The translations under genes were made by a program, and so were the position numbers. 35,117 nucleotides of DNA, from NCBI RefSeq assembly GCF_028745735.1, contig NZ_JAQZSM010000032.1, forward strand, positions 1-35,117, read 5' to 3'. The DNA is from Roseinatronobacter alkalisoli (GTDB taxonomy: Bacteria; Pseudomonadota; Alphaproteobacteria; Rhodobacterales; Rhodobacteraceae). This document shows positions 6,178 through 22,639 of the stretch, in pieces. Below the pieces are notes generated by a model. The model did not search any database and was not told the origin of the DNA. It was given only the letters and a program-made list of their open reading frames with translations. Each line of letters starts with the position of its first letter. The stretch's first letter is position 1.

Positions 6178-6520
6178 GGCTTCTCTCCTGTCCGCCAAAC
6201 CCGCCACGTCCTCGGCCCTACCGACGGAAAAGCATAGCATGAGTCGCTATCTCTGGTGCTCATCAATCGCATCAGGTGGAGAGCGGCCTGTGACATTGCA
6301 ACACTGCGCACGTAACACACGGTGAAACTTGTCTGTCGCTCTGATCTCTTCAAGCGACTGCCACTCGCTGAGAAAACCATATTCGGGCTCTTGTCCGATG
6401 CCCGCTGTTTTGAATTGCACTCCGATGCTCTGTAATGCGTTCGTTGAGAATAAATCCCTTGCCGTAGGCTGGTATCAACCGTCATAGTCATGATACCTCG
6501 CCTTGACCCGGTATTAACCC
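6178..6520 (+). promoter_or_regulatory. Intergenic region between integrase and helicase, with inverted repeat
   Basis: These 343 bases hold no credible gene. The part next to the integrase carries its ribosome-binding site and resembles the leader of the integrase remnant near 31837. Close to the helicase start is a perfect 7-bp inverted repeat, GGTATCA at 6471-6477 and TGATACC at 6491-6497, 24 bases before the TTG. It looks like an operator for a dimeric regulator. No dedicated regulator gene adjoins it. Confidence 0.4.
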
Positions 6521-9500: not shown

Positions 9501-9889
9501 CTCGGGTCGAAAGCCTGATGAAAGCATGCGCGGAGTTCATGAGCCGGCGCGGCGAAAGCCGCCTCGATGATCAAGAACTGTTCGGGCACCTTTCTTTACC
9601 TGCCATCGAGATGATCTGTGAGGCATGGAGCAGACTGCTTGACCCCTTCTGGGAGCAAGCCAAGCAAGAGGTGCGGGACAGCTTCGCCTATGAGGACCTC
9701 CCAAAGGGCTATATCGCGATTCAGGCAATTCTTCAGAAGCTGGATGGTGATGCTCGCCACGCCGACGAAATTCATGAAATGATGTCGAAGGTGATCGAGG
9801 AAGCTGAGCTGCTGTCGCGGAACCACGAACCGGAGATCGGGCGCCGGGTTTCGGTGGTGTTCTTTTCTGATGGAGCAGGAGAGCATTGA
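6521..9889 (+). CDS. PLD-family nuclease fused to SF2 helicase, probable antiphage protein
   Basis: The 1122-residue protein has two recognisable parts. An N-terminal phospholipase-D-like domain (about 40-200) has one HxK motif, His168 and Lys170, followed by SGSANFSKSG (180-189). One such motif per chain implies that a dimer forms the nuclease site. A superfamily 2 helicase follows, with Walker A APTGSGKT (297-304), DESH (390-393), SAT (421-423), motif V (758-768) and motif VI QGLGRIDR (785-792). The C-terminal third (about 810-1122) is helical and unassigned. PLD plus SNF2-like helicase architecture is common in defence islands, where the helicase recognises or translocates on invading DNA. 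TTG 6521 is the first possible start after a stop at 6515-6517 and has no clear ribosome-binding site, so the true start is uncertain. No partner genes flank it, so it seems to act alone. Confidence 0.8.
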   Translation: MFSLPNWLRHKPHKIDKPEVSNHGKPHSAVAPKVGTNIDHPVINLYRPHITSGDCLIVTGYQDFLSSLAVLMKEVKDLRDPEASTDIRIRISFGIDTANSRRLGKSKPVTEEMKLYWLEKSGLQVEDDDDLLAVLAKRAIQTRRLELRVFDPSLAQKHLGITGDRRMHAKIVASRVGAVSGSANFSKSGLYSNIEYADGLDAGSHELQAERTRAAEQIWEVSADWTDEALEILDKLIKPATAEDAMARMIAEQKGFEPWLTGERREITGHKLYGYQQELTYEACSITYDHGIAFVEAPTGSGKTEIGCHLAEALSDTFLRVIPSSPVHGVARKNAAVIAPPKVIPSWEKHSTNSLRPIANTKLAKQHLRGAGDDSQSGLRLDQYGVLIIDESHTVTPGFEQASQMAAAVELAPPSWNVCLSATLLGNRDVDWLTHMQEKRASIFMTPDYIQAMGELFDREMQRSPDIFDHQASLAVLSEPETALSRQARTELSELISPFLTRRQRRCIGQDEDRSTHSYPKLANHGRPKTLALAKPQKARLDEIVTLCHELAPGGRVTAVEKSRFGHVKTQQSTQDQLHIRNLLNILRVSAAQAAWEMSHGVIGKWLREFEQGSKNGRRAPHPGQADMFAQLGIDTLATPETCDALARKLNSQSLRELDEKRYEACLRIQNKKERVVFLAERTDTLEIFAEALSRRGHHTNFVVGNQTKGDERAVKAVFGSAPDGFRRITHGKSVESYFRPGGKNAPHGPASVFLTYKMAEGINLQSADTLVLLGVTSNLKELIQGLGRIDRIDSQFGIVNYHLVDIPVGQFASDEKVTNRIENYRTLAGEDLIDAVQEVGSEDAEVILESVIAYLGSARRLRNDNFHDVLARTKERISPERYALISGARIEGTWGAELALLSARERFTALHLKGVDKPANFFPPRLLMLRHYEEGLVLVRDQLSCANILEAAYERTRSLGLEQTRMPLEDLSNALEIIAEQLGTLTEWDLRPARVESLMKACAEFMSRRGESRLDDQELFGHLSLPAIEMICEAWSRLLDPFWEQAKQEVRDSFAYEDLPKGYIAIQAILQKLDGDARHADEIHEMMSKVIEEAELLSRNHEPEIGRRVSVVFFSDGAGEH

Positions 9890-10285: not shown

Positions 10286-11323
10286 CTAGCGCGACGGCAA
10301 AGCGATCCAATCGGCAAGCGCAACATCTGCGTGAAGGAAGGCGGGGATTTTCTCGCCCAGCTCTTCCATATTTGTGATGTTGCCGTCGTTGAGCATATCG
10401 CGCGTGATCAGCGTGGGCGGCACGACCACCTGTTCACCTGGGTCTTCTCCGGCAAGCAAAAGCGCCAAGGCGCGCACCGAAACCTCGCCCACCACGGCAG
10501 GGTTTGTCGCGGCAGTCGCAGCCCAGGGCGAATTCGGCTCACGCATCATCGCAATGTCAGCCGTCGAGATATCGGCCGAATAGATATTGATGTTATCCGC
10601 GACACCCGCTTCCTGCGCGGCGATCATCACACCCTTGGCAAATTCGTTATAGGGGGCAAAGACGACTTCGATACCGGGATTGGCCGAAAAGACAGCGCGC
10701 GCCTGATTGGCGACCGAATTGGCGATCGGGTTATCGAGCGTTCCGAATTGCGAGACCTCGTTGATGCCCTCGTAGCGCGCCTTGAACTCGCGCCATGTTT
10801 CGTCGCGCCGATCAAGCGGCGCAATGCCCGGTACATAGACATACCCGGCCATGAACGCTTCGCCGTTGTCGGTGATGGCCTGTTCCAGCGCCAGACGGGC
10901 AAGATCGCGGTCAGATTGTTCGATTTGCGGGACAGCCGCGTTTTCCACGTTCACATCAAAGGCCACCACCTTGATCCCCGCATCGACAGCGCGCTGTGCC
11001 GCATCCTGCATGGATTCGGTCAGACCATGCTGGATGATGATCCCATCGACCCCCAGCGCGATGGCCTGATCAACCATATCCGCCTGCAAGGCGGCGTCTT
11101 GACGGCTATCAAAGACGCGAAGATTGACACCGAGGGCTGCGGCCTGTGCCTCGACCCCAGCCAGATAAGACTGAAAGAAGTCGCCTGTCGAAAGGTAGCG
11201 CACCAGTGCGACGGTCACGTCGCCCGGGTTATCGAAAGGTGCGGGTGCATCCTGCGCTAGCGCCAACGAAGGCGTGAACGCAAAAGCACCGGCTGTCATC
11301 ATTAGTATGCGTCTGGAGATCAT
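10286..11323 (-). CDS. Periplasmic sugar-binding protein of ABC importer (RbsB type)
   Basis: The 345-residue protein has a signal peptide (MISRRILMMTAGAFAFTPSLALA; the SRR start is slightly Tat-like), then the two-lobed periplasmic-binding-protein fold of the ribose/galactose group. Recognisable parts are VTVALVRYLSTGDFFQSYLAG, DGIIIQHGLTE, KVVAFDVNVEN and FAPYNEFAKGVMIAAQEAG. It captures a sugar and delivers it to the permease encoded 38 bases upstream. The neighbouring mtnK and mtnA genes suggest a ribose modified at C5, such as 5-methylthioribose or 5-deoxyribose. The family alone does not define the substrate. Confidence 0.9.
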   Translation of the reverse strand: MISRRILMMTAGAFAFTPSLALAQDAPAPFDNPGDVTVALVRYLSTGDFFQSYLAGVEAQAAALGVNLRVFDSRQDAALQADMVDQAIALGVDGIIIQHGLTESMQDAAQRAVDAGIKVVAFDVNVENAAVPQIEQSDRDLARLALEQAITDNGEAFMAGYVYVPGIAPLDRRDETWREFKARYEGINEVSQFGTLDNPIANSVANQARAVFSANPGIEVVFAPYNEFAKGVMIAAQEAGVADNINIYSADISTADIAMMREPNSPWAATAATNPAVVGEVSVRALALLLAGEDPGEQVVVPPTLITRDMLNDGNITNMEELGEKIPAFLHADVALADWIALPSR

Positions 11324-11361
11324 GGTTTCCTCCCTTTCTTCAGACTTGGTTGAACTCAGTT

Positions 11362-12375
11362 TCAGGCCCCACGGCTACCTCGCGCCGTGAAGGCAAAAGT
11401 AAACACCAAGGCAACGACAAGAACCGCGCCCTTGATGAAATCCTGTGTGTAATAAGGCGCGTTCATCATGGTCATACCTTGCAACAGCACCCCAACAAAA
11501 AGCGCACCGATGGCTGTGCCGAACGCATTGGGCTTGCCTGCGCCGAGCACTGCAAATCCGATCAGGGCTGCTGCGACCGCGTCAAGCAGAAGATTTGTGC
11601 CAGACGCCACATCCCCTCGCCCCAGACGGGCGGCCAGAAGCACTCCGCCGAAGGATGCCAGCGTGCCAGAGATCATATAGGCCGCGATCTTGTAGCGCTC
11701 GACCTTGACCCCCGCGAGTTGTGCCGCCTGCGCATTCGAGCCGATAGCATACATCAGCCGTCCATGACGGGTGAATTCCAGAAACACCCACACCAGCAGG
11801 GCCACAACCAGCAGAAAGATCACCGAAAGCGGGATCAGCCGTTCGATGAAGAAATCAATCCGGTGACGGCCCAGCATCAGGAATAATTCGGAAAATGTGC
11901 CGCGCGCGACTGTGCCATCGGGCAGGGTCATGCCGGTCGAGATCGAGCGCCCTTCGGTCGGGATGCGCTGCAAGCCAATCAGCAGGAACATCATCCCCAG
12001 CGTCGCCAGCAGGTCTGGCACACGCGCCTTGACGATCAGCAGGCCATTCACCAGACCCACACCCGCGCCCATCAGCAGACACAACGCAATCGCCACGCCC
12101 GCGCTCAATTCCCAGACCACCATCACATAGGCCGAGAGCATAAGCGCCGATGTGGCCACTGCCCCGATGGACAGATCAAACCCTCCCACGACCAGCGTGG
12201 CAGTGACACCCAGAGCAAGAATGCCGGTGATCGCGACGGACTGAAACACGAAGACAGCGCTATGTGGTGACAGAAAACCGGGCGCGGAGATGGAGAAAAA
12301 CACCAGAAGCCCCGCCATCAGCAGCAGGAAGCCAAATCTTATCGCCAGGTCGATCAATCTTGTCTGCACGCTCAT
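11362..12375 (-). CDS. ABC sugar importer permease (RbsC type)
   Basis: The 337-residue integral membrane protein has about nine or ten helices. It carries the branched-chain/ribose permease signature VGGFDLSIGAVATSALMLSAY and the later motif YAIGSNAQAAQLAGVKVERYK, the loop that contacts the ATPase. It belongs to the ribose-type permease family that works as a homodimer. Its start overlaps the stop of the ATPase gene by four bases (ATGA at 12372-12375), so the two are translationally coupled. It forms the channel for the sugar bound by the protein encoded at 10286-11323. Confidence 0.92.
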   Translation of the reverse strand: MSVQTRLIDLAIRFGFLLLMAGLLVFFSISAPGFLSPHSAVFVFQSVAITGILALGVTATLVVGGFDLSIGAVATSALMLSAYVMVVWELSAGVAIALCLLMGAGVGLVNGLLIVKARVPDLLATLGMMFLLIGLQRIPTEGRSISTGMTLPDGTVARGTFSELFLMLGRHRIDFFIERLIPLSVIFLLVVALLVWVFLEFTRHGRLMYAIGSNAQAAQLAGVKVERYKIAAYMISGTLASFGGVLLAARLGRGDVASGTNLLLDAVAAALIGFAVLGAGKPNAFGTAIGALFVGVLLQGMTMMNAPYYTQDFIKGAVLVVALVFTFAFTARGSRGA

Positions 12376-13895
12376 GCACCTTGCCTTTCTATCACAGCCT
12401 CTGTCGGACTGTCTGCAACTTCAGCCATGATCGAGGCTACGTCGATCTCTCTGTTGGGGCGGTCGCTTTTCAGGCTGCCTTCGCAAATCACCACGATGCG
12501 ATCCGCAACTTCAAGCGCCTCGTCCAGCTCTGTCACCAGCACCAATGTTGCTCGCCCCGCCGATTGCGCACGGATGCGGGCCCCGATGTCGCGCCGCGCC
12601 TGAATGTCCACACCCTGAAACGGCTCGTCGAGGATAAGAAGGCGGGCTTCTTCAGCCATCCAACGCCCGACCATCACCTTCTGCTGGTTGCCGCCAGAAA
12701 GGCTGAGAATCGGATCGGTATGGGATTGGCATTTGACCCCCATCTCCGAGATCATTCGCGCCGCGAGTGTTTTCTCGCTCTTGCGGCTGATCAGATCAGC
12801 AAAGCCGCTATGGCGACGGGTGAAAGGCAGTGTGAAATTGCGCCCGATATCGAAATCGGGGATCACTGCATTGCTCCGCCGGTCGCGAGCGGCCATGAAC
12901 ACCTTGCTCGCGATTGCCTGCGCCGGTGATTTCGGCGTGTAGCTCTGCCCATCCAGCCGCATTGTGCCCGAAACAGGGCGCGCTACCCCGTAAAGTGTAT
13001 TTGCCAGCTGCGCCTTGCCACTGCCGACCAGTCCAACCACAGCCACCACTTCATTGGCATGCAGCGTCAGATCGAAGGGCCGTGACTGGGCGCGCAAGCG
13101 CAGATCAGAAAGCTCCAGCACCGGCGCACCGCGAGCGGGAATCGTGATATCCACCTCGGTCATCTCATGGCCCAACATGGCGCGCACGGCACCAGAGTAA
13201 TCCAGCGGGACCTGGGTGAAGCTGCCTGAGATCACCCCGTCACGCATGCACAGAATGCTGTCGGCCAATCGGCGGATATCGGACATGCGATGCGAGATAT
13301 AGAGGATAGCCACACCCTTGGCCCTGAGACCTTCGAGCAGCGTGAACAATCGCTGTGCTTCCGCGTCTGACAGCGAGGATGTCGGTTCGTCAAGAATGAG
13401 GATTTTCGGATCATGTGACAAGGCCCGTGCAATTGCCACAAGCTGGCGATCAGCCAGCGACAGCAGAGCAACAGGCTGTGTCATCGTCGCCACCAGCCCC
13501 ACAGCTTTGGCAATCTCGCGCGCCTCGGCGCGCAGCTTTGCGCCGCGCAGGAACAGGCCAGACCCGGCCGCGATACGGTCGAGCATCAGGTTTGACGCGA
13601 CATCAAGGTCAGTCACAACTCCGTCATTGATGGACTGATGAACAGTCACGATACCCGCGCGCAGCGCCGCATGAGGAGTGTCAGGGGCGTAGGCCTGTCC
13701 ATCCAGCAACATCGAGCCACGATCCGCCGCCTGTACGCCGCACATGATCTTGACGAGCGTCGATTTGCCCGCCCCATTTGCCCCCATCAGCACAGTGATC
13801 TGCCCGGCGGGCAGGTCCAGATCAATGCCGCGCAGAACACTGTTGGCCCCAAAGGCCTTGTTCATATTACGGATTTCCAGCGCGTTCTGCGTCAT
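12372..13895 (-). CDS. ABC sugar importer ATPase with two nucleotide-binding domains (RbsA type)
   Basis: From ATG 13895 the protein has 507 residues, the usual RbsA length. The first ATPase domain has Walker A GANGAGKST, signature LSLADRQLV, a weak match to LSGGQ, and Walker B ILILDEPTSSL. The second has a degenerate Walker A (GLVGSGKAQ, with Ala where Thr is expected), signature LSGGNQQK and Walker B LLILDEPFQGVD. This asymmetry is typical of the family. A longer frame to 14030 is possible, but ATG 13895 has a GGGAGAG ribosome-binding site and begins at the conserved LEIRNMNKAFG. It is the first gene of the importer operon, divergent from mtnK across a shared operator. Confidence 0.92.
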   Translation of the reverse strand: MTQNALEIRNMNKAFGANSVLRGIDLDLPAGQITVLMGANGAGKSTLVKIMCGVQAADRGSMLLDGQAYAPDTPHAALRAGIVTVHQSINDGVVTDLDVASNLMLDRIAAGSGLFLRGAKLRAEAREIAKAVGLVATMTQPVALLSLADRQLVAIARALSHDPKILILDEPTSSLSDAEAQRLFTLLEGLRAKGVAILYISHRMSDIRRLADSILCMRDGVISGSFTQVPLDYSGAVRAMLGHEMTEVDITIPARGAPVLELSDLRLRAQSRPFDLTLHANEVVAVVGLVGSGKAQLANTLYGVARPVSGTMRLDGQSYTPKSPAQAIASKVFMAARDRRSNAVIPDFDIGRNFTLPFTRRHSGFADLISRKSEKTLAARMISEMGVKCQSHTDPILSLSGGNQQKVMVGRWMAEEARLLILDEPFQGVDIQARRDIGARIRAQSAGRATLVLVTELDEALEVADRIVVICEGSLKSDRPNREIDVASIMAEVADSPTEAVIERQGA

Positions 13896-13934
13896 CTCGG
13901 CTCTCTCCCTGCTCCCGATAATTGATGTAAATCT

Positions 13935-13962
13935 GCAAATGTCAATAGTATTTGACATTTGC
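13935..13962. promoter_or_regulatory. Operator 1 of the sugar regulon, in the mtnK/importer divergent promoter
   Basis: A perfect inverted repeat: GCAAATGTCAA (13935-13945), six bases, TTGACATTTGC (13952-13962). Both arms contain the hexamer TTGACA, which can act as the -35 box on each strand. In the plus direction TTGACA at 13952-13957 points to mtnK. In the minus direction TTGACA (complement of 13940-13945) has ATTATC 17 bases further on and points to the importer ATPase. A dimeric regulator bound here would cover both -35 boxes, which suggests repression of both operons. Two weaker copies with the same geometry are at 17380-17407 and 22612-22639. Confidence 0.8.
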
Positions 13963-14031
13963 TGAAAAAACGGAAAACTGACAAGATGACGGCGGCACCA
14001 GAGACGCGCCGCGCTGTGAGAGGAGGTCACG

Positions 14032-15297
14032 ATGAGCGCAACCCCTTATGAAGCCCTGACACCGGAAACGGTCGCCGCGCGACTTGGCGATATCGTGGCT
14101 GTCAGCGCGCATGCCGGCCCTTCAGAGACATGGCAGGTGTCAGAAGTGGGGGACGGAAATCTGAATCTGGTCTTCATCGTAACGGGCGCGGCCGGTCAGG
14201 TCATCGTCAAGCAGGCTTTGCCCTATGTGCGACTGGTGGGCGAAAGCTGGCCCTTGCCGCTGAAGCGTGCCTTCTTCGAATATAACGCCCTGATCCGGCA
14301 GGCCGCCCGCGCGCCGGGCATGGTGCCAGAGGTCTATCACTACGACGATGCACAGGCGCTGGTGGTGATGGAATTTCTCACCGATCATGTGATCCTGCGT
14401 CAAAGCCTGATGCAGGGCATCCGCCACGAGGGGCTTGGCGGGTTACTTGGGTTGTTTTGCGCGCGGACGCTGTTTCGCGGCTCGGATCTCAGTATGAACA
14501 CGGCCGAGCGCAAACGCGATCTTGCGCGTTTTGCGGAGAATATCGAGCTGTGTGACATCACCGAAAACCTGGTATTTTCCGATCCGTATTTCGCAGCCCC
14601 GATGAACCGCCATACGCCCGCCCTCGATCCCATCGTGGAAATGCTGCGCGGGGATCGCGATCTGAAAGTCGCGGCGCAGCATCTGAAAGCCGCTTTCGCC
14701 AATAATGCGGAAACACTGCTGCATGGGGATTTGCATACTGGCTCTGTCATGGTCTGCGGCGACAAGGCGCGCGTGATCGACCCTGAATTTGCGACTTACG
14801 GTCCGATTGGCTTTGATGTCGGGATGCTGATTGCGAATTTTCTGATGGCCGCCTGTGCCGTGCCCGGCCATCTGGCCGATACTGCGGAACAGGCCAGCTA
14901 TCAGGATTGGATTCTCGCCACCGCAACCGAGGTCTGGGACAATTTCGCGCAGGAATTTACGCATCTGTGGCGCAATGAGCGCAAGGGCATTCTCTATCAG
15001 TCTACGCTCTTCGAGGACCAGAACGACGTGCTTGGCGCAGAGCAGGCGAGGCTTGACAGACTCGCCGCCATCTGGCGCGACGCGCTTGGATTTTGCGGCG
15101 TTGAGATGCATCGCCGCATTCTGGGCCTCGCGCATATCGCCGAATATGACCAGATCGCAGATGAAACCCTGCGCGCCCGGTGCGAGGCGCGCGGGCTGAT
15201 GCTGGGACGCGCGCTTGTTATCGGGCGCGAAACCATCCGAACCATGACAGACGTAACAGATCTGGCCCGCAGCATTCTGGGGAAGGACTATCTATGA
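14032..15297 (+). CDS. mtnK: S-methyl-5-thioribose kinase (MtnK family)
   Basis: The 421-residue protein phosphorylates 5-methylthioribose at C1; relatives also accept 5-deoxyribose. It has the aminoglycoside-kinase-like fold. Lys60 (VIVKQALPYV) is the ATP-binding Lys, the catalytic loop is HGDLHTGSV (231-239), and the metal-binding motif is DPEFATYGPIGFD (250-262). These are the MtnK signatures. ATG 14032 has a very good ribosome-binding site (AGGAGG). The stop overlaps the mtnA start (ATGA). Having a kinase plus an importer, and no MtnP phosphorylase, means the pathway starts from a free sugar rather than from methylthioadenosine directly. Confidence 0.93.
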   Translation: MSATPYEALTPETVAARLGDIVAVSAHAGPSETWQVSEVGDGNLNLVFIVTGAAGQVIVKQALPYVRLVGESWPLPLKRAFFEYNALIRQAARAPGMVPEVYHYDDAQALVVMEFLTDHVILRQSLMQGIRHEGLGGLLGLFCARTLFRGSDLSMNTAERKRDLARFAENIELCDITENLVFSDPYFAAPMNRHTPALDPIVEMLRGDRDLKVAAQHLKAAFANNAETLLHGDLHTGSVMVCGDKARVIDPEFATYGPIGFDVGMLIANFLMAACAVPGHLADTAEQASYQDWILATATEVWDNFAQEFTHLWRNERKGILYQSTLFEDQNDVLGAEQARLDRLAAIWRDALGFCGVEMHRRILGLAHIAEYDQIADETLRARCEARGLMLGRALVIGRETIRTMTDVTDLARSILGKDYL

Positions 15298-16397
15298 AAA
15301 TCAACGGAACCCCCTATCGTTCAATCTGGCGCGATGCCGCGTCTGATGCGGTGCAGATCATTGACCAGCGCTGGCTGCCGCATGAATTGCGCATCGTGCC
15401 GCTGCGCAATCTAAATGATTTTGCCACGGCCATCCGCGACATGTGGGTGCGTGGCGCACCGCTGATCGGCGCGACTGCGGCATGGGGCATGGCCGAGGAA
15501 ATGGCGCGCGACCCGTCCGATACCAACCTGAACGCGACATGGGATGTGTTGCATGACACCCGGCCCACGGCGATCAACCTGCGTTGGGCGCTGGATGCAA
15601 TGCGGGCGACGCTCGCCCCCCTGCCCCCTGCCAAGCGCGCGGATGCTGCCCGCGCAAAGGCCGAAGCGATTTGCGACGAGGATGTCGAGATCAACCGCCG
15701 GATAGGGGAAAACGGTCTTGCACTGCTGCGTGACATTGCAGCGCGCAAGGGCGGCGGTCGGGTCAATGTGCTGACGCATTGCAACGCGGGTTGGCTTGCG
15801 ACGGTCGATTGGGGCACGGCTACCTCGCCCATCTACCACGCGGTTGAGGCCGGGATTGATATGCATGTTTTCGTGGATGAAACCCGCCCGCGCAATCAGG
15901 GCGCGCTTCTGACGGCCTGGGAAATGAACAGCCACCGCGTCAGCCATGATCTGATCGTCGACAATGCGGGCGGGCATCTGATGCAGCATGGCGAGGTCGA
16001 TATCGTCATCGTCGGCACCGATCGCACCACGGCGCGCGGCGATGTGTGCAACAAGATCGGCACTTATCTCAAGGCACTCGCGGCAAAGGCAAATGACGTG
16101 CCGTTCTATGTCGCGCTGCCCTCGCCCACGATCGACTGGACCGTGCGCGATGGGCTTCGTGAAATCCCCATCGAGGAACGATCAGGCCGCGAAGTGACCC
16201 ATGTGCAGGGCCGCGGCCCTGACGGGCGCGTGGTCGATGTCCAGATCTCGCCGGACGGAACGGGCGCGCGGAATCCGGCCTTTGATGTGACGCCGGCAGA
16301 GCTTGTCACGGGTTTGATCACCGAACGCGGCATTTGCGCGGCCACTCCTAAAGGGATGTCGGCGCTCTTTCCCGAATACGCGACCGCGGCGCAATAG
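15294..16397 (+). CDS. mtnA: S-methyl-5-thioribose-1-phosphate isomerase (MtnA family)
   Basis: The 367-residue protein converts 5-methylthioribose 1-phosphate to 5-methylthioribulose 1-phosphate. It has the family motifs RGAPLIG (53-59), the catalytic Cys163 in THCNAGWLAT, Asp243 in GTDRTTARGD, and NKIGTYLKA (253-261). The start at 15294 overlaps the mtnK stop by four bases, so kinase and isomerase are coupled. It ends one base before the end of the convergent regulator gene. Relatives acting on 5-deoxyribose 1-phosphate (DrdI) look very similar, so the sequence does not settle which 5-substituent is used. Confidence 0.93.
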   Translation: MKINGTPYRSIWRDAASDAVQIIDQRWLPHELRIVPLRNLNDFATAIRDMWVRGAPLIGATAAWGMAEEMARDPSDTNLNATWDVLHDTRPTAINLRWALDAMRATLAPLPPAKRADAARAKAEAICDEDVEINRRIGENGLALLRDIAARKGGGRVNVLTHCNAGWLATVDWGTATSPIYHAVEAGIDMHVFVDETRPRNQGALLTAWEMNSHRVSHDLIVDNAGGHLMQHGEVDIVIVGTDRTTARGDVCNKIGTYLKALAAKANDVPFYVALPSPTIDWTVRDGLREIPIEERSGREVTHVQGRGPDGRVVDVQISPDGTGARNPAFDVTPAELVTGLITERGICAATPKGMSALFPEYATAAQ

Positions 16398-16398
16398 G

Positions 16399-17364
16399 TC
16401 AGGCCAGAAGCGCTTGCGCCACACTGAGGCTGGTGACAAGATGGGTCGCATAGCCACCCGCGATACAGGCGCGGGTGGCAGCGACCTTGTCATGGCCGGG
16501 CGTGATGAGGATGCCGGCCTGTAAACCGATCAGATCGCTCAATTCGACCCCGATCATCCGCTCGTCCAGCGGGCCGGGGATCGCCTGGCCCTGTGCATTT
16601 ATGAAGCGCCCCGACACCACACCGACGGCCCCTTGGGCCACATACCAGGCCAACTCGTCTCGCGTGGCCACCCCGGCCCCGACGACATGACTGTCCGGCT
16701 GACAGGTGCCGACGGAGAACAGGCTTTTCGTGATATGGCCAAACTGGTCAAGCTGTGCCTTCAGGATCGGTTCGGCGCGGAGTTCGCGGGCGAGGTCTGC
16801 TCGGCTCAGAATTGCGGGTGCATGCAGGTTGTGGCAGTGTGACCCAAGCTTTTGGGCAAGTCGCGTTGAACAGGCCTCGGCTGTGAAACCATATGGGGTG
16901 GACATGGAGCCGACGAGTTGAATCACGGCCAGATCAGGCAGGTTCTGCTGTTCCAGCACAGTGGCCAGATCATAGACTGTACGGCCCCAAGCCACGCCCA
17001 GCCGGTCATCAGGGGCCAGCAGGTCCGGCAGCCATTCCGCCGCACCCCGGACAACCCGGTAAAACCTGTCCTCATCGTTGCTAGCGGCTTCATCTGGCAC
17101 GACGTAGGCCGCTTGCAGGCCGAAACGAGCACATAACTCCAGTGCCAATCGGTGCGTCGTGAAGCTCTCGGCTGCCATCGAGATGCGAATCAACCCACTT
17201 TCGCGCGCGTCGGCAAGGTAATTGACGACTGACGCACGTGATATGCCAAGCCGCTCTGCAATTTCCTTCTGGTTGAGCCCTTCCTGATAATACATCCAGG
17301 CGACTTCGATGATGACATTCTCGCCTGTGATCTGGCCAGCGGTCCTGCGTCGTGTGATCCCCAT
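16399..17364 (-). CDS. SorC/DeoR-type transcriptional regulator of the cluster
   Basis: The 321-residue protein has an N-terminal helix-turn-helix (LNQKEIAERLGISRASVVNYL, near residues 30-50). A SorC-type sugar-phosphate-binding domain follows, with LGVAWGRTVYDLA, VIQLVGSM and the later GVVSGRFINAQGQ. SorC proteins sense a phosphorylated sugar intermediate. ATG 17364 is preceded by GGGGTGAG; a GTG two codons earlier is also possible. The gene faces away from the aldolase gene, with operator 2 between them, and probably controls all three operator sites and therefore the whole block 10286-22566. The effector is likely the ribulose 1-phosphate made by MtnA. Confidence 0.88.
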   Translation of the reverse strand: MGITRRRTAGQITGENVIIEVAWMYYQEGLNQKEIAERLGISRASVVNYLADARESGLIRISMAAESFTTHRLALELCARFGLQAAYVVPDEAASNDEDRFYRVVRGAAEWLPDLLAPDDRLGVAWGRTVYDLATVLEQQNLPDLAVIQLVGSMSTPYGFTAEACSTRLAQKLGSHCHNLHAPAILSRADLARELRAEPILKAQLDQFGHITKSLFSVGTCQPDSHVVGAGVATRDELAWYVAQGAVGVVSGRFINAQGQAIPGPLDERMIGVELSDLIGLQAGILITPGHDKVAATRACIAGGYATHLVTSLSVAQALLA

Positions 17365-17379
17365 TCTCACCCCAATTCA

Positions 17380-17407
17380 ACTAATGCCAAGATGGTTTGA
17401 CATTTGT
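17380..17407. promoter_or_regulatory. Operator 2 of the sugar regulon, regulator/aldolase divergent promoter
   Basis: ACTAATGCCAA (17380-17390), six bases, TTGACATTTGT (17397-17407). Compared with operator 1 the right arm matches 10 of 11 bases and the left arm 8 of 11, with the same six-base spacer. TTGACA at 17397-17402 can be the -35 box of the aldolase/dehydrogenase gene. The site is 15 bases upstream of the regulator ATG, so binding would also affect the regulator's own expression. Confidence 0.7.
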
Positions 17408-17460
17408 GCAAGCCTATCCCATTGTCAATCACACACAGGGCGAAGACGGATAGATACAGC

Positions 17461-19497
17461 ATGATCGCAAATCTCTGGCAGGACAAGCAGGCAAAGCAAT
17501 TTCAGGATGCAGCGGGCACAGACCCGATGGCGCGCGAACTTGCCTTGCGGGTCTACACATCGCGCCTGATCGGGCAAGACCCTGATCTGGTCATGCATGG
17601 GGGCGGCAATACTTCGGTCAAGCTGCGCGGGCGCGATGTGATGGGGCGCGAGATTGACGTGCTGCATGTCAAGGGTTCGGGGTGGGATCTGGAAACCATC
17701 GAGGCGGCCGGCTTGCCTGCGGTACGGCTGGACCCGCTTATGGAGTTGCGCGCGCTTGATGCGCTCTCGGACGAGGCGATGGTGAATGTGCAGCGTGCAA
17801 ACCTGCTTGACAGCACTGCGCCCAACCCATCGGTGGAAACCCTTTTGCATGCCTGGTTACCCCCGCGCTATATCGATCACACGCATGCAACGGCGTTTCT
17901 GGCGCTGGCAAATCTGCCCGAAGTGGCTGAAGCCACGCGCGAGATTTTCGGCGACCGCATGGCGCTGGTGCCCTATATCATGCCCGGGTTCGTGCTGGCC
18001 AAGGCCGCGGCAGAGGTGTTTGAGGCCAATCCGCAAGCCGAAGGGTTGCTGCTGGTCAATCATGGGCATTTCACGTGGGGCGAGAGCGCGAAAGCGTCCT
18101 ATGACCGTCTGATCGCCCATACCAACGCGGTCGAGAGCTGGCTCGCACAGCGCCGCCCTGCGCCGCTGCATCCTGCCGCAGCGCTGCCCGCTGACGAACG
18201 CACGCAGGCCCTGCCGCGACTGCGCGCCGTGATTGCCCGGACGCTTGGTGACGGTGCCGCCATGCCCGTGATGGATGTACGGGCAAGCGGTGATGTTATG
18301 AGCTTTCTCGCCCGCCCTGATCTGGATGTGCTGGCGACGCGCGGGGTTGCGACACCAGATCATGTGATCCGCACCAAGGGTCACCCGCTCGTGCTGCGCA
18401 AAGCTGACCAGAGCCCGGACGGATTGCGGCAGGCGCTGGACGCTTACGCCGCGCGCTACCGCGCCTATTTCGACCGCCATAACCCGCGCTTTGGGGGCGC
18501 AAAAACCATGTTGGCCCCTGTGCCCGGCCTGGTCTGGGCCGAAGGGATCGGGTTGATCGGGCTGGGGGCCACGAAATCCGCCGCGCGCATTGCGGCAGAC
18601 ATTGGCGAGCAAACCCTACGCGTGATGCGCGACAGCGAGGCTTCGGGCGGGTTTCACCCCATCCCCGAAGCGGACCTGTTCGATATGGAATACTGGTCGC
18701 TTGAACAGGCGAAGCTGGGCAAGGGCAAACCCGCCGCACTGCAAGGGCGCATTGTGCTGGTGACAGGTGCTGCGGGCGCAATTGGTGCCGCCATCGCGCG
18801 GGCTTTTGCTGCGCAGGGCGCATCGCTCATGCTGATCGACCGTGAGGCAGAGGCCGTAGAGGCGTTGCGCGCCAGCATGGGGCGCGATCATTGCGCGCTG
18901 GCCTGCGACATCACGGCGGCAGGCGCGGCAGATCAGGCGATCGGGGCATGTATAGACAGTTTCGGGGGATTGGATATTCTTGTCTCAAATGCAGGTGCCG
19001 CCCTGACAGGCGACATGGCCACGCTGCCCGACACCACCCTGCGTGCCAGTTTCGAGTTGAATTTCTTTGCGCCAGTCGCCTTCGCGCAAGCCGCCGCGCG
19101 TGTGTTGCGGGCGCAAGCGCGGGGCGGGCAGTTTTTGTTCAATGTCTCGAAACAGGCGGTCAATCCGGGCAAGGGCTTTGGGGCTTACGGCCTGCCCAAG
19201 GCCGCAACGCTGTTTCTGGTCAAGCAACTCGCGCTAGAGTTGGGCGGCGAGGGCATTCGCGTCAATGGCGTCAATGCCGACCGAATCCGCTCTGGCCTGC
19301 TGACCGATGACATGATCGAAGCGCGCGCCAAGGCACGCGGATTGACCGAAGATGACTACCTGTCGGGAAATCTGCTCAAGCGCGAGGTGGAAGCGCGCCA
19401 TGTGGCCGATGCCTTTGTGGCGCTGGCGCTGTCAGACCGCACAACGGCGCATGTTCTGACAGTGGATGGCGGTAATATCGAAGCCTCCCTGCGCTAG
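17461..19497 (+). CDS. Fused class II aldolase and short-chain dehydrogenase
   Basis: The 678-residue protein has an N-terminal class II (zinc) aldolase of the fuculose/rhamnulose-phosphate type. Its features are the phosphate-binding motif GGGNTSVK (47-54) and the likely metal ligands H140-T-H142 and His201 (NHGHFTWGE). A helical linker (about 220-420) follows, then a C-terminal short-chain dehydrogenase with TGAAGAIG (435-442), NAG (510-512), Ser563, and Tyr576/Lys580 in YGLPK. The same architecture in rhamnose-degrading alphaproteobacteria (RhaD-type) splits rhamnulose 1-phosphate and oxidises the lactaldehyde formed. Next to mtnKA the likely substrate is a 5-substituted ribulose 1-phosphate, giving DHAP plus a C2 aldehyde that the dehydrogenase oxidises or reduces. 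ATG 17461 begins at the conserved N-terminus; an upstream frame to 17404 would overlap operator 2. Confidence 0.88.
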   Translation: MIANLWQDKQAKQFQDAAGTDPMARELALRVYTSRLIGQDPDLVMHGGGNTSVKLRGRDVMGREIDVLHVKGSGWDLETIEAAGLPAVRLDPLMELRALDALSDEAMVNVQRANLLDSTAPNPSVETLLHAWLPPRYIDHTHATAFLALANLPEVAEATREIFGDRMALVPYIMPGFVLAKAAAEVFEANPQAEGLLLVNHGHFTWGESAKASYDRLIAHTNAVESWLAQRRPAPLHPAAALPADERTQALPRLRAVIARTLGDGAAMPVMDVRASGDVMSFLARPDLDVLATRGVATPDHVIRTKGHPLVLRKADQSPDGLRQALDAYAARYRAYFDRHNPRFGGAKTMLAPVPGLVWAEGIGLIGLGATKSAARIAADIGEQTLRVMRDSEASGGFHPIPEADLFDMEYWSLEQAKLGKGKPAALQGRIVLVTGAAGAIGAAIARAFAAQGASLMLIDREAEAVEALRASMGRDHCALACDITAAGAADQAIGACIDSFGGLDILVSNAGAALTGDMATLPDTTLRASFELNFFAPVAFAQAAARVLRAQARGGQFLFNVSKQAVNPGKGFGAYGLPKAATLFLVKQLALELGGEGIRVNGVNADRIRSGLLTDDMIEARAKARGLTEDDYLSGNLLKREVEARHVADAFVALALSDRTTAHVLTVDGGNIEASLR

Positions 19498-19505
19498 ACG
19501 CGCAG
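19489..19505. terminator. Short hairpin between convergent aldolase and RLP genes
   Basis: CTGCGC, five bases, GCGCAG. The loop contains the aldolase stop codon TAG. The two genes converge with only 15 bases between them, so this is the only place for a bidirectional terminator. The stem is short and has no T-run, so the call is tentative. Confidence 0.3.
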
Positions 19506-19512
19506 GGGGCCA

Positions 19513-20637
19513 TCACTGCGCGCCAGCCGCGTCCACGGCGCGCCGCATCGCGGTGATACCGTCGCCGATCTGCGCGCCAAGCCGCAAGAGCGATCCGCCC
19601 AGCAGATAGACAACATCCGACCCATACATGCGCGCCATCTCGCCTGCCCGCTCGACGCTCATGCCACCACCGGGCGACGGCAGGATCGGCACGCCCGGCC
19701 CCATCGGGTCGCTGCAGGCTTCGGCAATCGCCTGACACTGCGCGACGGTAAAGCCAAACCGCCCGCCGACATTGGGGAAAACCGAAATATCGGCACCGGC
19801 CAGGCGCTGCAACGTACCGAACAAAACGCCGTGATCGATCCCCGTATCGGGGGAAAGCACATAGGGTCCAAGGAAGCTTGGATGGGCCATCACTGGCAGG
19901 CTCAGATCAGGGTCACTGGCAATCGCGTGCATCAGCCCGAAGCCCAGAAGCCCCGGCATGATCAGGAACCCGTCCGCACCGGCATCGCGGGCAAAACGCA
20001 GATTGTCGCGGATTTCCCACGGATGCCCTGCGACCGACGGGAAGTAGAGCGCGCGGCGCCCTGTTTCTTCGGCTGCGCGTGCCACGCCGGCTGCGATCTT
20101 CACGACCCGTTCACGAAACGGGGCCATGTGCTGATCGGTGATGCCGTGATCTTCCTTGACGATATCCGCCCCGGCAAGCGCGCTGCGATAGGAAATCTCT
20201 GCCAGCGCATCTGCGCCCAGCCCCTGCGGCTTGATGACGGGTGCGATCAGCCCGCCCTGTGCTCGACCGCACAAGCGCCGCAGCCCCTCTATCCCGAACC
20301 GCGCGCCCTTGTGGCGTGCAAGGATCGCCTCTCCGGGATCGACGCCCATGACTCGCAACCCCCGCTGGATTGACGAATTGCCGAACACGACATTCAGAAA
20401 TTGGGTGAATTCCGACCCGGCACTGTCAGAGCTGTAGCTGAGCGTCGCGCGAAACTGGCTGTCGCCCTCACGGCCGATCTCTTCGATCCGACCAAGGATC
20501 GTGTCCTCAATATAGCCCGCCGGGACGACATCACGGGGGATTTCCACTGTCTGTTCCAGCGCGATCGCTTCCGCCCGCGCCCGCGCCTCGGCGAGCGACG
20601 CCGCAAAGATACGGTAGGTGACGCGAAATCGGCTCAT
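19513..20637 (-). CDS. RuBisCO-like protein (form IV)
   Basis: The 374-residue protein has the RuBisCO large-subunit fold: an N-terminal domain, then the barrel with VFGNSSIQRG, GLIAPVIKPQGLG and the loop GADIVKEDHGITDQ. Lys136 corresponds to the catalytic KPK lysine and Lys161 to the carbamylated lysine. Asp163 is kept, but the metal-binding Glu after it is His164, and the usual catalytic loop residues are not those of true RuBisCO. It should not fix CO2. Form IV proteins isomerise, enolise or decarboxylate sugar phosphates. In R. rubrum one shifts the carbonyl of 5-methylthioribulose 1-phosphate to give 1-methylthioxylulose 5-phosphate, which fits the mtnKA neighbours. ATG 20637 overlaps the transketolase stop by four bases. 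Confidence 0.88.
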   Translation of the reverse strand: MSRFRVTYRIFAASLAEARARAEAIALEQTVEIPRDVVPAGYIEDTILGRIEEIGREGDSQFRATLSYSSDSAGSEFTQFLNVVFGNSSIQRGLRVMGVDPGEAILARHKGARFGIEGLRRLCGRAQGGLIAPVIKPQGLGADALAEISYRSALAGADIVKEDHGITDQHMAPFRERVVKIAAGVARAAEETGRRALYFPSVAGHPWEIRDNLRFARDAGADGFLIMPGLLGFGLMHAIASDPDLSLPVMAHPSFLGPYVLSPDTGIDHGVLFGTLQRLAGADISVFPNVGGRFGFTVAQCQAIAEACSDPMGPGVPILPSPGGGMSVERAGEMARMYGSDVVYLLGGSLLRLGAQIGDGITAMRRAVDAAGAQ

Positions 20638-21635
20638 AGCGCCTCTGCCTTGACAGCGGAATGCACCGCATCCACGCGCACTGCGCAAAGGGCTTCTTCC
20701 GTGATGCCAGTTTCCTGCCCGGTCACCCGCTCGACCGCACGCACAAGGCTAAGGGCGTCCAGCCCGTAATAGCGCATCAGATAGGGCTTTGAGCCACCAT
20801 GTGCATAGGTATCCTGAAGCCCCAGCCGCACCAGCTTGCGGGCCAGACCCGCCTCGGCCAGAGCCTCGGCCACCATCGAGCCGACCCCCCCCGCCACGAG
20901 GTGGTTTTCCAGCGTCACCACACCATGCCGGACAGAGGCTGCATGTTCCACGATCTGCGCCGCGTCAAAGGGCTTGAGCGTGCTCAGATGCAGGTGCCGC
21001 ACCGCCACCCCCGCCGCATCGAGTGCCGCGCGCGCGCGCATTGCTTCCTCGGTTGCGATGCCCGCCGTTACGACCAGAACATCATCCCCCTCGGCCAGGA
21101 CCCGCATCTGACCGATGCGCAGGGGCGTGTTGAACAGGCGTGGCACAGAGCCGCGCAAGATACGACAATAGACCGGGCCATCGACCGTATCTGCCTCTGC
21201 GACGATGCTTTCTACCTCGGTCGCATCGCCTGCTTCCAGCACAGTCATATTCGGGATTGTCCGCATGACCGAGATATCTTCGATCGCCTGATGGGTCATG
21301 CCGCCCGGTGTGGTGATGCCCGGCAGAAAGCCCATCAGACGCACCTTGCGGCGCGGATAGGCAATGGACGCCATCAACTGATCATAGGGCCTGCGATACA
21401 GAAATACGCCAAAACTGTGGATAAAGGGCCGGAACCCTGCCAGCCCCAACCCGCCCGCAAAAGACAGCATGTTTTGTTCGGCCATACCCAGCGACAGGAA
21501 CTGATCGGGGTGGCGGTCGCGGAAACCATCTATCTCGCAACTCGAGGTCAGATCGGCGGACAGACACAGCACTTCCGGGTGCTGGACAGCATAGGCCTCA
21601 AATGCCGATGCGTAGGGGCGATTAACCATTTCCAT
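20634..21635 (-). CDS. Transketolase C-terminal subunit (Pyr and C domains)
   Basis: The 333-residue protein has the pyrimidine-binding and C-terminal domains of transketolase. The catalytic Glu53, which activates the thiamine ring, is in SLGMAEQNML (48-57). Further motifs are GGLGLAGFRPFIHSFGVFL and GGMTHQAIEDISVMR. It works with the N-terminal subunit encoded just upstream, forming a two-gene transketolase like those dedicated to special sugars (for example the apulose-phosphate type). The start at 21635 follows GGAGG located inside the upstream gene and lies one base after that gene's stop, so the two are coupled. A dedicated transketolase directly preceding the RuBisCO-like gene suggests it consumes or supplies that enzyme's product. 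Confidence 0.92.
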   Translation of the reverse strand: MEMVNRPYASAFEAYAVQHPEVLCLSADLTSSCEIDGFRDRHPDQFLSLGMAEQNMLSFAGGLGLAGFRPFIHSFGVFLYRRPYDQLMASIAYPRRKVRLMGFLPGITTPGGMTHQAIEDISVMRTIPNMTVLEAGDATEVESIVAEADTVDGPVYCRILRGSVPRLFNTPLRIGQMRVLAEGDDVLVVTAGIATEEAMRARAALDAAGVAVRHLHLSTLKPFDAAQIVEHAASVRHGVVTLENHLVAGGVGSMVAEALAEAGLARKLVRLGLQDTYAHGGSKPYLMRYYGLDALSLVRAVERVTGQETGITEEALCAVRVDAVHSAVKAEAL

Positions 21636-21636
21636 C

Positions 21637-22566
21637 TCAGTGATCCTCCAGCACGATGGGATCAATCCCCAGCTCTCGTGCAATCGCGATATTCATTTCG
21701 TCCCGTTCCTGAGCGGTTTTGAAGCGCACATAGTGCAGGCGCGGGAAGCGGCGCATCAGGAAGTCCATCCCCTTGGTGGGCGAGGAATGGGCAAGGATTA
21801 TCAGCGGCTGGCCGTCATGCGGCGTGGCCTTCGCTTGACGCAGCGCATCCAGATCATGGGCGTCAACTTCGGCCACGACAGCGCCGAAATTGCGCAGCTT
21901 GGTGGCAATATCGCCCACCTTCATTACATCATCCATCGCGCCATCGCATTGCTGGCGATTGACATCCATCAGCGCCCAGAGGTTGCCGATCTCATGATGT
22001 GTGGCGGCCTGCACGGCTTCCCATGTCTGACCTTCCTGCACTTCGCCATCCGACATGAAAACACAGACCTCGCCGCGCTCGCCGCGCCGCTTGCGCCCCC
22101 ATGCAAGGCCCGCCGCCGTGGAGAGGCCAATGCCAAGCGTGCCGTTATGCACTTCCATGCCGGGACTGTGCTCTGCCCCGATCATTTCGACCGAAGACCC
22201 ATCCTGATTGAACATCTCCAGCCCTTCGGGGGCCATGCGGCCAACCTCGATCAGGCAGGCATAGGCCACCAGCGCGTAATGCGCGGGCGCAATGAACAGG
22301 CGGTCATATTCAGGTGCGGCGGGGCCGTTATATCCTGCACCTGTCACATAGTCAGGGTTCTGTGCAGACGGCACGCCCCCGAAGGGCGGTGGGATCATCG
22401 GCATGGTTGAGGGCCCAAGCGTCAGCGCCTCATTATACAGAAATGCAAGCTGCTCGGCGGCAGAACAGGCTTGTGACAGATAACCGCCATTGTTGCGCAT
22501 GGCATGTTCAAACACGCGTCGGCGAATAGCCGAGGCGATATCTTCGCTTCTGGGGGCGTTGCGCAT
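21637..22566 (-). CDS. Transketolase N-terminal subunit (TPP-binding domain)
   Basis: From ATG 22566 the protein has 309 residues. It contains the TPP diphosphate/Mg site SDGEVQEGQTWEA (172-184) with DVNRQQCDG (201-209), the conserved His97 in PAHYALVAY, and GTLGIGLS (142-149). It is shorter than a full transketolase and is completed by the product of the next gene. ATG 22566 has an AAGGA ribosome-binding site seven bases away; the earlier in-frame ATG at 22590 has none and would lie almost on the predicted transcript start. It is the first gene of the three-gene operon ending in the RuBisCO-like gene. Confidence 0.92.
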   Translation of the reverse strand: MRNAPRSEDIASAIRRRVFEHAMRNNGGYLSQACSAAEQLAFLYNEALTLGPSTMPMIPPPFGGVPSAQNPDYVTGAGYNGPAAPEYDRLFIAPAHYALVAYACLIEVGRMAPEGLEMFNQDGSSVEMIGAEHSPGMEVHNGTLGIGLSTAAGLAWGRKRRGERGEVCVFMSDGEVQEGQTWEAVQAATHHEIGNLWALMDVNRQQCDGAMDDVMKVGDIATKLRNFGAVVAEVDAHDLDALRQAKATPHDGQPLIILAHSSPTKGMDFLMRRFPRLHYVRFKTAQERDEMNIAIARELGIDPIVLEDH

Positions 22567-22593
22567 TGTAAATTCCTTACTGTTCTGCATCGG

Positions 22594-22639
22594 AGATAAC
22601 TACGAACACAAACAAAAGTCAATGTCGTCTGTCTTTTGT
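22594..22639 (-). promoter_or_regulatory. Operator 3 and promoter of the transketolase/RLP operon
   Basis: ACAAAAGTCAA (22612-22622), six bases, CTGTCTTTTGT (22629-22639), with the same 11-6-11 design as operators 1 and 2. On the minus strand TTGACT (complement of 22617-22622), a 17-base spacer and TTATCT (complement of 22594-22599) form a good sigma-70 promoter. The start point is near 22587, about 20 bases before the ATG. The -35 box lies inside the operator arm, as at the other two sites. Confidence 0.7.

Follow-up and report, generated by a model that had tools for sequence, protein, structure and literature searches.

Methylthioribose and 5-deoxyribose derive from near-universal SAM chemistry, and the ways in which bacteria recover carbon and sulfur from them are only partly understood. 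In the published DHAP shunt, MtnK and MtnA are combined with a class II aldolase (PMC10986504, PMC12632272, PMC6079011), and the E. coli enzymes MtnK, MtnA, and Ald2 act on both sugars (PMC10986504). The first half of the MTA-isoprenoid shunt consists of MtnA followed by a RuBisCO-like protein (RLP) of the DeepYkr group (PMC5893883). PMC11659671 describes a sulfo-transketolase pathway in which the split transketolase (TK) SqwGH dismantles sulfoquinovose and leaves a C2 sulfur aldehyde; other literature cited is PMC6302742, PMC8217296, PMC7895386, PMC7325909, and PMC8102628. A sequence-only reading of a 35,117-nt stretch of Roseinatronobacter alkalisoli DNA (the window, that is, the whole stretch analysed) had held that no described pathway uses its gene set. 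This stands in part: importer-MtnK-MtnA-aldolase and MtnA-RLP combinations are published, whereas RLP-TK coupling appeared in no paper found by a search that reached mostly literature outside subscription journals. The new part is the TK partner of the RLP, and the cluster is apparently an undescribed variant of methylthioribose/5-deoxyribose salvage. We lean towards reading the locus as a regulated system for the salvage or catabolism of 5-substituted riboses with two exits, in which the RLP would feed a diverged TK that replaces the cupin methylsulfurylase; every catalytic step in R. alkalisoli is predicted from sequence, as are the substrate and what becomes of the C2 unit.

All ten proteins of the cluster are long open frames at 10286-22590, confirmed by the ORF list, Pfam, and NCBIfam, and the gene set can indeed be read directly, as had been claimed. 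The cluster end given earlier, 22639, lies 49 bases past the last start codon. An ABC importer is encoded on the reverse strand by a methylthioribose-binding-like sugar-binding protein (10286..11323; PF13407), a permease (11362..12375; PF02653; the nearest NCBIfam model is ribose permease, under its cut-off), and an ATPase (12372..14030; PF00005; sugar-importer ATPase models under their cut-offs) whose real start is probably downstream of the GTG. The best PDB match of the binding protein, both by phmmer (234 bits) and by Foldseek (39% identity), is 4ry8, titled '5-methylthioribose transporter solute binding protein TLET_1677', and this nearness in sequence and fold supports the predicted place of the importer in the salvage set. 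On the forward strand follow a kinase of the 5-methylthioribose/5-deoxyribose type, MtnK (14032..15297; TIGR01767, 480 bits, cut-off 275), and 5-methylthioribose-1-phosphate isomerase, MtnA, from the ATG at 15294 (15294..16397; TIGR00512, 422 bits, cut-off 279). A SorC/DeoR-type sugar-responsive regulator (16399..17370, reverse strand; PF04198) resembles E. coli YjhU/MtnR (34% identity over 323 aa), and a class II aldolase domain is fused to a short-chain dehydrogenase (SDR) at 17404..19497 on the forward strand (PF00596 + PF13561; NF006192, 889 bits, cut-off 639), with a likely start at about 17461 and a substrate predicted only from its family. The importer would bring in the sugar, MtnK would form the 1-phosphate, and MtnA the ribulose 1-phosphate. 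The first exit would be the DHAP shunt, in which the aldolase half would yield DHAP and (methylthio)acetaldehyde; this aldehyde is probably the substrate of the fused SDR, which would oxidise or reduce it. The imported sugar is most likely 5-methylthioribose, perhaps with 5-deoxyribose besides. That it is 5-deoxyribose and not methylthioribose seems to us rather unlikely: the E. coli enzymes take both sugars (PMC10986504), but the closest structure to the binding protein is annotated for methylthioribose.

The second exit would begin with a form IV RLP of the DeepYkr group, TK-linked branch (19513..20637, reverse strand, start likely at 20637; PF00016). Its best PDB match is 3qfw from R. palustris (226 bits), which we take, by elimination, to be RLP1 of that species. 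In trees made by a quick method with one support measure, and with a DeepYkr root that rests on long branches, the window RLP groups with 3qfw and cupin-linked relatives, and the cupin-linked RLPs form one clade nested inside the TK-linked RLPs. All 46 TK-linked RLP rows carry His at the RuBisCO E204 position, a residue common to 3qfw and the cupin-linked kin, whereas MtnW (2zvi) and 17/17 other RLPs carry Glu. Tree and signature place the RLP in one group with the methylthioribulose-1-phosphate isomerase of R. palustris. The possibility that it is MtnW, the 2,3-diketo-5-methylthiopentyl-1-phosphate enolase of ordinary methionine salvage, is extremely improbable, and we rejected it on NCBIfam scores, tree, and His signature. 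The nearest NCBIfam models are indeed those of MtnW (178 and 132 bits), but the scores fall far under the cut-offs of 409 and 513.6, the RLP stands apart from the long-branched 2zvi and differs from it at the E204 position, and MtnB, MtnX, and MtnD were unrecognised among the 30 window proteins scanned. An apiose-type RLP (OiaX) was also discarded, the score on that model being 69 bits where the cut-off is 700. The RLP would shift the carbonyl from C2 to C4, a 1,3-isomerisation whose product would be 1-(methylthio)xylulose 5-phosphate or, with 5-deoxyribose as the sugar, 1-deoxyxylulose 5-phosphate. The two exits proposed from the sequence, by aldolase and by RLP carbonyl shift, are consistent with these protein families.

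The RLP gene is accompanied on the reverse strand by a split, diverged TK, comprising TKC, the pyrimidine-binding and C-terminal part (20634..21635, start likely at 21635; PF02779 + PF02780; best PDB 6yaj), and TKN, the thiamine-diphosphate-binding part (21637..22590; PF00456; best PDB 6yak). The TKC/RLP and MtnK/MtnA gene pairs each overlap by four bases, the pattern of translationally coupled genes. Fold family and split architecture are as in Carboxydothermus 6yaj/6yak, as might be expected of an ordinary pentose-phosphate enzyme whose presence here is accidental or serves general carbon flow. We consider this very improbable and rejected it on clade identity and pocket residue changes: the TK clade is 46-97% identical to the window TKN, against at most 37% for the others compared, it is tied to the RLP, and a pyrimidine-binding domain occurs in seven further genes of the genome, of which two align as full-length TK-like proteins. 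In E. coli TK numbering, the alignment, in which rows L045 and L150 are the same genome, keeps the thiamine diphosphate/metal residues Asp155 (60/60 rows), Asn185 (60/60), and Glu411 (58/58) as well as His473; His26 is replaced by Tyr (59/60, one gap), His100 by Ile (60/60), and His461 by Leu (58/58). In ordinary TKs, His100 recognises the C1 hydroxyl of the ketol donor. Of their phosphate-orienting motif, for which PMC11659671 supports the residue roles, the clade retains Arg520 but has other residues at Arg358 and His461, so that a 5-phosphate need not be bound. The diverged TK would cut the C2-C3 bond to release glyceraldehyde 3-phosphate and a C2 fragment bearing the methylthio or methyl group, and would thus occupy the place of the cupin methylsulfurylase of R. 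rubrum and R. palustris. For 5-deoxyribose as the sole sugar speak the match of TKC to the DXP synthase model (157 bits, under the cut-off of 466) and the non-His residue at the His100 position in the genome's own DXP synthase.

One relatives set comprises 34 loci, 11 of which carry all ten genes as a group; several other loci are too short to judge, and the aldolase of the 11 is sometimes cut by the stretch end. The full set is also found on named Rhizobiaceae plasmids, and one further plasmid stretch ends before any regulator. The order TKN-TKC-RLP is kept from Rhodobacteraceae to Spirochaetota, Bacillota, Myxococcota, and Synergistota, phylum names following record titles and many of the relatives being MAGs. 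In sets that share some genomes, it was seen in 27/34 loci (relatives set), 18/18 (order sample), 2/2 (class sample), 8/12 (phylum of the Treponema genome), 6/7 (class of the Eubacterium genome), and all three plasmids covered in full. A neighbourhood confined to this genome, which the sequence-only reading had named as evidence against itself, is therefore not what we found: Rhodobacteraceae-type loci and Rhizobiaceae plasmids share the full set, and several phyla the TK-RLP core. The RLP ortholog is present in 19 of the 244 genomes of the order sample, all 19 of which carry the special TKN; three additional genomes carry this TKN without the RLP, and none of the 11 with only other RLP types has it. 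In the class sample (385 genomes), the three strong RLPs, R. alkalisoli included, are all TK-positive, with six genomes of weak RLP matches left out; L064, six low-scoring genomes, and G858, whose RLP is split in two by contig ends, were left out elsewhere. In one Eubacterium-class genome (L202), the roughly 9 kb upstream of the RLP contain no TK.

RLP and TK are linked to MtnA by gene order and, in one relative, by fusion: MtnA and TKN form a single gene there, with TKC and RLP behind it; a contig labelled Acetivibrio (flagged UNVERIFIED_CONTAM) has TKN-MtnA-TKC-RLP. MtnK and MtnA each occur in 13/18 TK-RLP stretches of the order set, where three of the five misses are stretches of only 4 kb, in 1/7 and 2/7 of the Eubacterium-class set, and in 1/12 each of the spirochaete set; it counts against the preferred route that most of the distant TK-RLP loci are without MtnK or MtnA within the stretch covered. 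The substrate may vary, because an FGGY kinase adjoins the core in Vibrio. Five clusters (L133, L134, L135, L209, L219) hold the TK clade without the RLP, and the pocket changes are identical in the four of them aligned and hence independent of the RLP. An aldolase-family gene lies beside the TK in four of the five (for L219, on the strength of an epimerase annotation within that family). Aldolase and TK might work in series, the C2 aldehyde without an alpha-hydroxyl being the TK's ketol-unit acceptor. The aldolase also accompanies the TK in complete loci and in a Treponema gene run, and the clade has Gly where DXP synthase has Asp beside the TH motif, a position at which the residue alignment gaps, DXP synthase included; we take this Asp to be Asp469 of E. 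coli TK, said to read the alpha-hydroxyl. A series arrangement would, however, give the RLP nothing to do, although no gene is more tightly tied to the TK, and it sits poorly with the uniform loss of His100; we hold it to be improbable. In two Eubacterium-class loci the genes between aldolase and RLP encode TPR or unassigned proteins, and those aldolases may thus be unrelated; the weak aldolase matches in L052 and L159 are explained by the SDR half, and aldolase tallies across sets were not used.

The preferred RLP-to-TK route also draws on the distribution of cupins. The 14 intermediate RLPs of the class sample are all TK-negative at E 1e-40, and 12 of them adjoin a cupin gene (Pfam confirmed five of six scanned, the sixth having been scanned in the wrong frame). 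A cupin gave no match in the TK-linked loci among 123 loci searched, and a cupin methylsulfurylase was recognised neither among the 30 window proteins scanned nor in the R. alkalisoli genome by one sequence search run without a positive control. RLP-linked TK and cupin are mutually exclusive in the alphaproteobacterial sample, and the published cupin route may have branched off later from a more ancient scheme.

In one Treponema gene run, TKN-TKC-RLP stand together with shell, PduL, PduS-like, and aldehyde dehydrogenase genes, the last of the PRK15398 type, presumably EutE. We considered a run without aldolase, its aldehyde supplied by RLP and TK, but the next contig stretch (outside L205) shows that the run opens with a class II aldolase gene, which rules this out, and TK-RLP is therefore not simply an aldolase substitute. 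The dehydrogenase and PduL would suit 5-deoxyribose as the sugar; sulfur-metabolism neighbours in some relatives argue against it. A CysK-like gene precedes TK-RLP in L189 and, inferred by position only, in L190, and two of 12 spirochaete loci, or three counting the unscanned L190, have a gene of the CysK-like or Cys/Met PLP kind next to TK-RLP; the remaining spirochaete neighbours scanned are unrelated. The PLP gene of L058 proved to be a D-serine ammonia-lyase and was not counted. In Ponticoccus, a DMSO-reductase-family gene lies between MtnA and TKN, and an O-acetylhomoserine sulfhydrylase, the enzyme type that captures methanethiol in the MTA-isoprenoid shunt although not specific to it, is encoded elsewhere in the R. 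alkalisoli genome (579 bits, cut-off 495.1). Phosphoketolase expels water and sulfoacetaldehyde acetyltransferase sulfite; a speculative and on balance unlikely extension is that the diverged TK is a sulfur-releasing thiamine-diphosphate lyase, whose methylthio enamine would expel methanethiol by beta-elimination and so turn 1-methylthioxylulose 5-phosphate into glyceraldehyde 3-phosphate, methanethiol, and an acetyl unit. Hints in this direction are the TK in the cupin's place, the CysK-like/PLP neighbours, the PduL of the Treponema run, and the nested cupin clade. If true, oxygen-independent salvage of sulfur and carbon would extend over several phyla, with the R. rubrum cupin shunt as a later replacement.

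Whatever its chemistry, the pairing of RLP and altered TK across several phyla points to a possible reaction for RLPs of a group whose function, in the literature consulted, is based on two purple bacteria, and supplies candidate enzymes for an unassigned microcompartment in a Treponema genome. Metabolosome-type microcompartments are shared only through this relative and its shell, PduL, aldehyde dehydrogenase, and PduS-like genes; no shell genes were recognised among the window proteins scanned. D-apiose/apionate catabolism employs RLPs (OiaX) and an apiose transketolase, so that RLPs and TKs both serve unusual-pentose catabolism there, but the window differs by the MtnK and MtnA in its cluster. 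SqwGH and the window TK are both split; SqwGH, however, moves an unsubstituted ketol to glyceraldehyde 3-phosphate, whereas the window TK is without the presumed ketol-reading residue and is accompanied by an RLP isomerase. With the DHAP shunt (E. coli mtnK-mtnA-ald2; Bacillus thuringiensis drdK-drdI-drdA) the window shares kinase, isomerase, class II aldolase domain, transporter, and MtnR-type regulator, but it adds the RLP and split TK, fuses the aldolase to an SDR, and uses as importer an ABC system with a methylthioribose-binding-like protein. With the MTA-isoprenoid shunt of Rhodospirillum rubrum and Rhodopseudomonas palustris it has in common MtnA, a DeepYkr RLP, signature residues, and tree neighbourhood, whereas it has a TK in place of the cupin and MtnK instead of MtnP.

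The chief interest of the cluster at 10286-22590 lies in the partnership between a form IV, DeepYkr-group RuBisCO-like protein (RLP; 19513-20637, minus strand) and a diverged split transketolase (TK), encoded on the same strand as a thiamine-diphosphate-binding part (TKN; 21637-22590) and a pyrimidine-binding plus C-terminal part (TKC; 20634-21635). In an order sample of 244 genomes, an ortholog of this RLP occurs in 19, the window genome counted (54-100% identity, the next RLPs reaching at most 33%), and all 19 encode the diverged TKN (73-100% identity); three further genomes possess this TKN but lack the RLP ortholog, and none of the 11 having only other RLPs encodes it. In a class sample of 385 genomes, the three RLPs scoring at least 498 bits, window included, are each accompanied by TKN, as are none of the 14 at 336-390 bits (E 1e-40). 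A cupin gene adjoins 12 of those 14 RLPs (L097 lies at a contig end and L071 has none); a search of 123 loci gave no cupin of this kind in the TK-linked ones.

Fifteen of 17 genomes with a distant RLP locus carry a TKN of 47-55% identity, the ordinary transketolases of distant genomes showing 27-36% identity to the window TKN. The other two are G628, with only a 57-residue TKN piece at a contig edge, and G630, with only ordinary transketolases, whose TKC-RLP contig stops short of TKN. In four of these 17 genomes (loci L052, L060, L061 and L065) RLP and TKN lie on separate contigs, the RLP contig of L061 ending 452 bases upstream. The order TKN-TKC-RLP is kept in 27/34, 18/18, 2/2, 8/12, 6/7 and 3/3 loci of six overlapping sets, the order set excluding the window genome. 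The misses arise from contig ends (L044, L053, L191, L192), a TKN piece at a contig edge downstream of RLP (L051), stretches without TK (the four loci on separate contigs, L159 and L202) and a 2.7 kb separation of TKN and TKC (L194). Of 20 plasmid records listed with this TKN, 18 recur in the RLP list (24 records in each list overall).

Some loci link this core to MtnA, or to MtnK and MtnA. In G443, MtnA and TKN share a single frame of 699 residues, with TKC and RLP next in order, and an Acetivibrio-labelled contig, whose own title flags possible contamination, has the order TKN-MtnA-TKC-RLP. Rhizobiaceae plasmids carry codirectional MtnK-MtnA-TKN-TKC-RLP next to an importer and the aldolase/SDR fusion, and the genes ahead of TKN-TKC-RLP in Ponticoccus encode a purine-nucleoside phosphorylase, an amidohydrolase, MtnA and then a DMSO-reductase-family protein (608 bits to 1eu1). 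The sparseness of neighbouring MtnK and MtnA in spirochaete loci (1/12 each) and Eubacterium-class loci (1/7 and 2/7, respectively) counts against the link, and two loci of the order set (L146, L147) have neither within 19 kb. The MtnA-TKN fusion gene lies at 7152-9248 of the alphaproteobacterial locus L091. On a Vibrio nigripulchritudo plasmid (L216, 8890-11551), TKN-TKC-RLP is followed by an FGGY kinase, with genes for an SDR and an ABC-type sugar importer nearby; MtnK and MtnA are not among the annotated genes of this stretch, whose gene table is incomplete, and the core may have another entry module here.

Two trees, one of 83 and one of 85 RLPs, place the window's RLP among other TK-linked RLPs, adjoining the cupin-linked RLPs (support 98 in the first tree), which form a single clade with 3qfw of R. 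palustris (support 100 in the second). Since 2qyg carries the name RLP2, 3qfw is by elimination RLP1, described as a 5-methylthioribulose-1-phosphate 1,3-isomerase in vivo (PMC5893883). Apart from a single gap at His294, every TK-linked row retains the equivalents of Lys175, Lys201, Asp203 and His294. At the position of E204, 46/46 TK-linked rows, 14/14 cupin-clade rows and 3qfw have His; MtnW has Glu, as do 17/17 other RLPs, a mix of several types. The RLP match at L137 (G087) contains one in-frame stop, perhaps at the gene start or marking a pseudogene.

The transketolase clade (60 TKN and 58 TKC rows, window included and one genome represented twice) keeps the cofactor residues Asp155, Asn185 and Glu411 (E. 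coli numbering) invariant. His26 is replaced by Tyr in 59 rows, with one gap, His100 by Ile in 60, the GDG motif by SDG in 60 and His461 by Leu in 58; His473 and Arg520 are kept and Arg358 is lost. Beside the TH motif the clade has Gly, against Asp in the genome's own DXP synthase. In ordinary transketolases His100 recognises the hydroxyl on C1 of the ketose, and Ile in its place would fit a substrate whose C1 carries CH3-S- or CH3-. Four clade members from RLP-less clusters carry the same changes, which therefore mark the clade and not the RLP link as such. The RLP-less loci (L133, L134, L135, L209, L219) are candidates for a second use of this clade; where the neighbours were read (L133, L135, L209 and, by annotation, L219), they include a molybdopterin oxidoreductase and a zinc dehydrogenase, in some loci joined by an FGGY kinase, a class II aldolase, a SorC-type regulator and a taurine/nitrate-type importer. 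The window genome has another split transketolase (L157, on G000:C61; 33-37% identity to the window's), sharing Tyr26, SDG and Leu461 with the clade but with Ser at 100.

The genes named by the sequence-only reading were found at their places by ORF, Pfam and NCBIfam analysis of the window, which is contig C57 in a genome of 4.84 Mb and 130 contigs. MtnK, MtnA and the aldolase/SDR fusion score above curated NCBIfam cut-offs; RLP, TKN, TKC, importer and regulator are recognised by Pfam but fall below every NCBIfam cut-off among the matches listed. The nearest named-record relative of the RLP is from Natronohydrobacter thiooxidans (93% identity). To the left of the cluster lie a transposase, a phage-type integrase and a large helicase (22-828, 5545-6240, 6521-9889), which, together with plasmid-borne copies elsewhere, suggests horizontal movement. 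The binding protein (10286-11323) matches 4ry8, titled as the binding protein of a 5-methylthioribose transporter from Thermotoga lettingae, best among solved structures by sequence (234 bits; runner-up 129), and its confident model (pLDDT 88.6) gives the same best Foldseek entry (E 6.5e-34 versus 2.5e-25 for the second). The regulator shares 34% identity over 323 residues with E. coli YjhU, now called MtnR, repressor of the DHAP shunt (PMC12632272).

One Treponema genome (G634; L205 and L206 on contig C245) has a run of aldolase, binding protein, ATPase, permease, MtnK, MtnA, PduL, EutN-like, aldehyde dehydrogenase (PRK15398 type), PduS-like, two BMC shell, two EutN/CcmL-like, fused TK and RLP genes, a candidate methylthioribose/5-deoxyribose microcompartment. 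The main text of a microcompartment catalogue (PMC8217296) lacks the terms 'transketolase' and 'methylthio', and describes a large number of metabolosome loci without an obvious aldehyde-making enzyme.

Because its phosphate sits on C1, the MtnA product is unfit as a transketolase donor. The published RLP reaction would bring the carbonyl alongside the carbon that bears the substituent, with the phosphate remaining on C5, giving a transketolase-like substrate. The acyl-anion unit released from it might be protonated, transferred or lose methanethiol, which the genome's own O-acetylhomoserine sulfhydrylase (579 bits), a common enzyme, could catch. In spirochaetes, a CysK-like gene directly precedes TK-RLP at L189 (L190 has, by position, a frame of equal length in the same place) and a Cys/Met PLP enzyme directly follows RLP at L192; these neighbours lean weakly towards sulfur release, the remaining scanned spirochaete neighbours being unrelated.

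An importer with a kinase, an isomerase and a class II aldolase makes up a DHAP shunt, which is already known (PMC10986504, PMC6079011). The observation of the sequence-only reading is confirmed, and its interpretation, which took an imported 5-substituted ribose through MtnK and MtnA to an aldolase exit and an RLP exit, is supported in part. The SDR half of the fusion would process the C2 aldehyde, by analogy with rhamnose-type fusions (TIGR02632). Transketolase and aldolase would break the same C-C bond, the former yielding glyceraldehyde 3-phosphate and an acyl-anion equivalent, the latter DHAP and an aldehyde.
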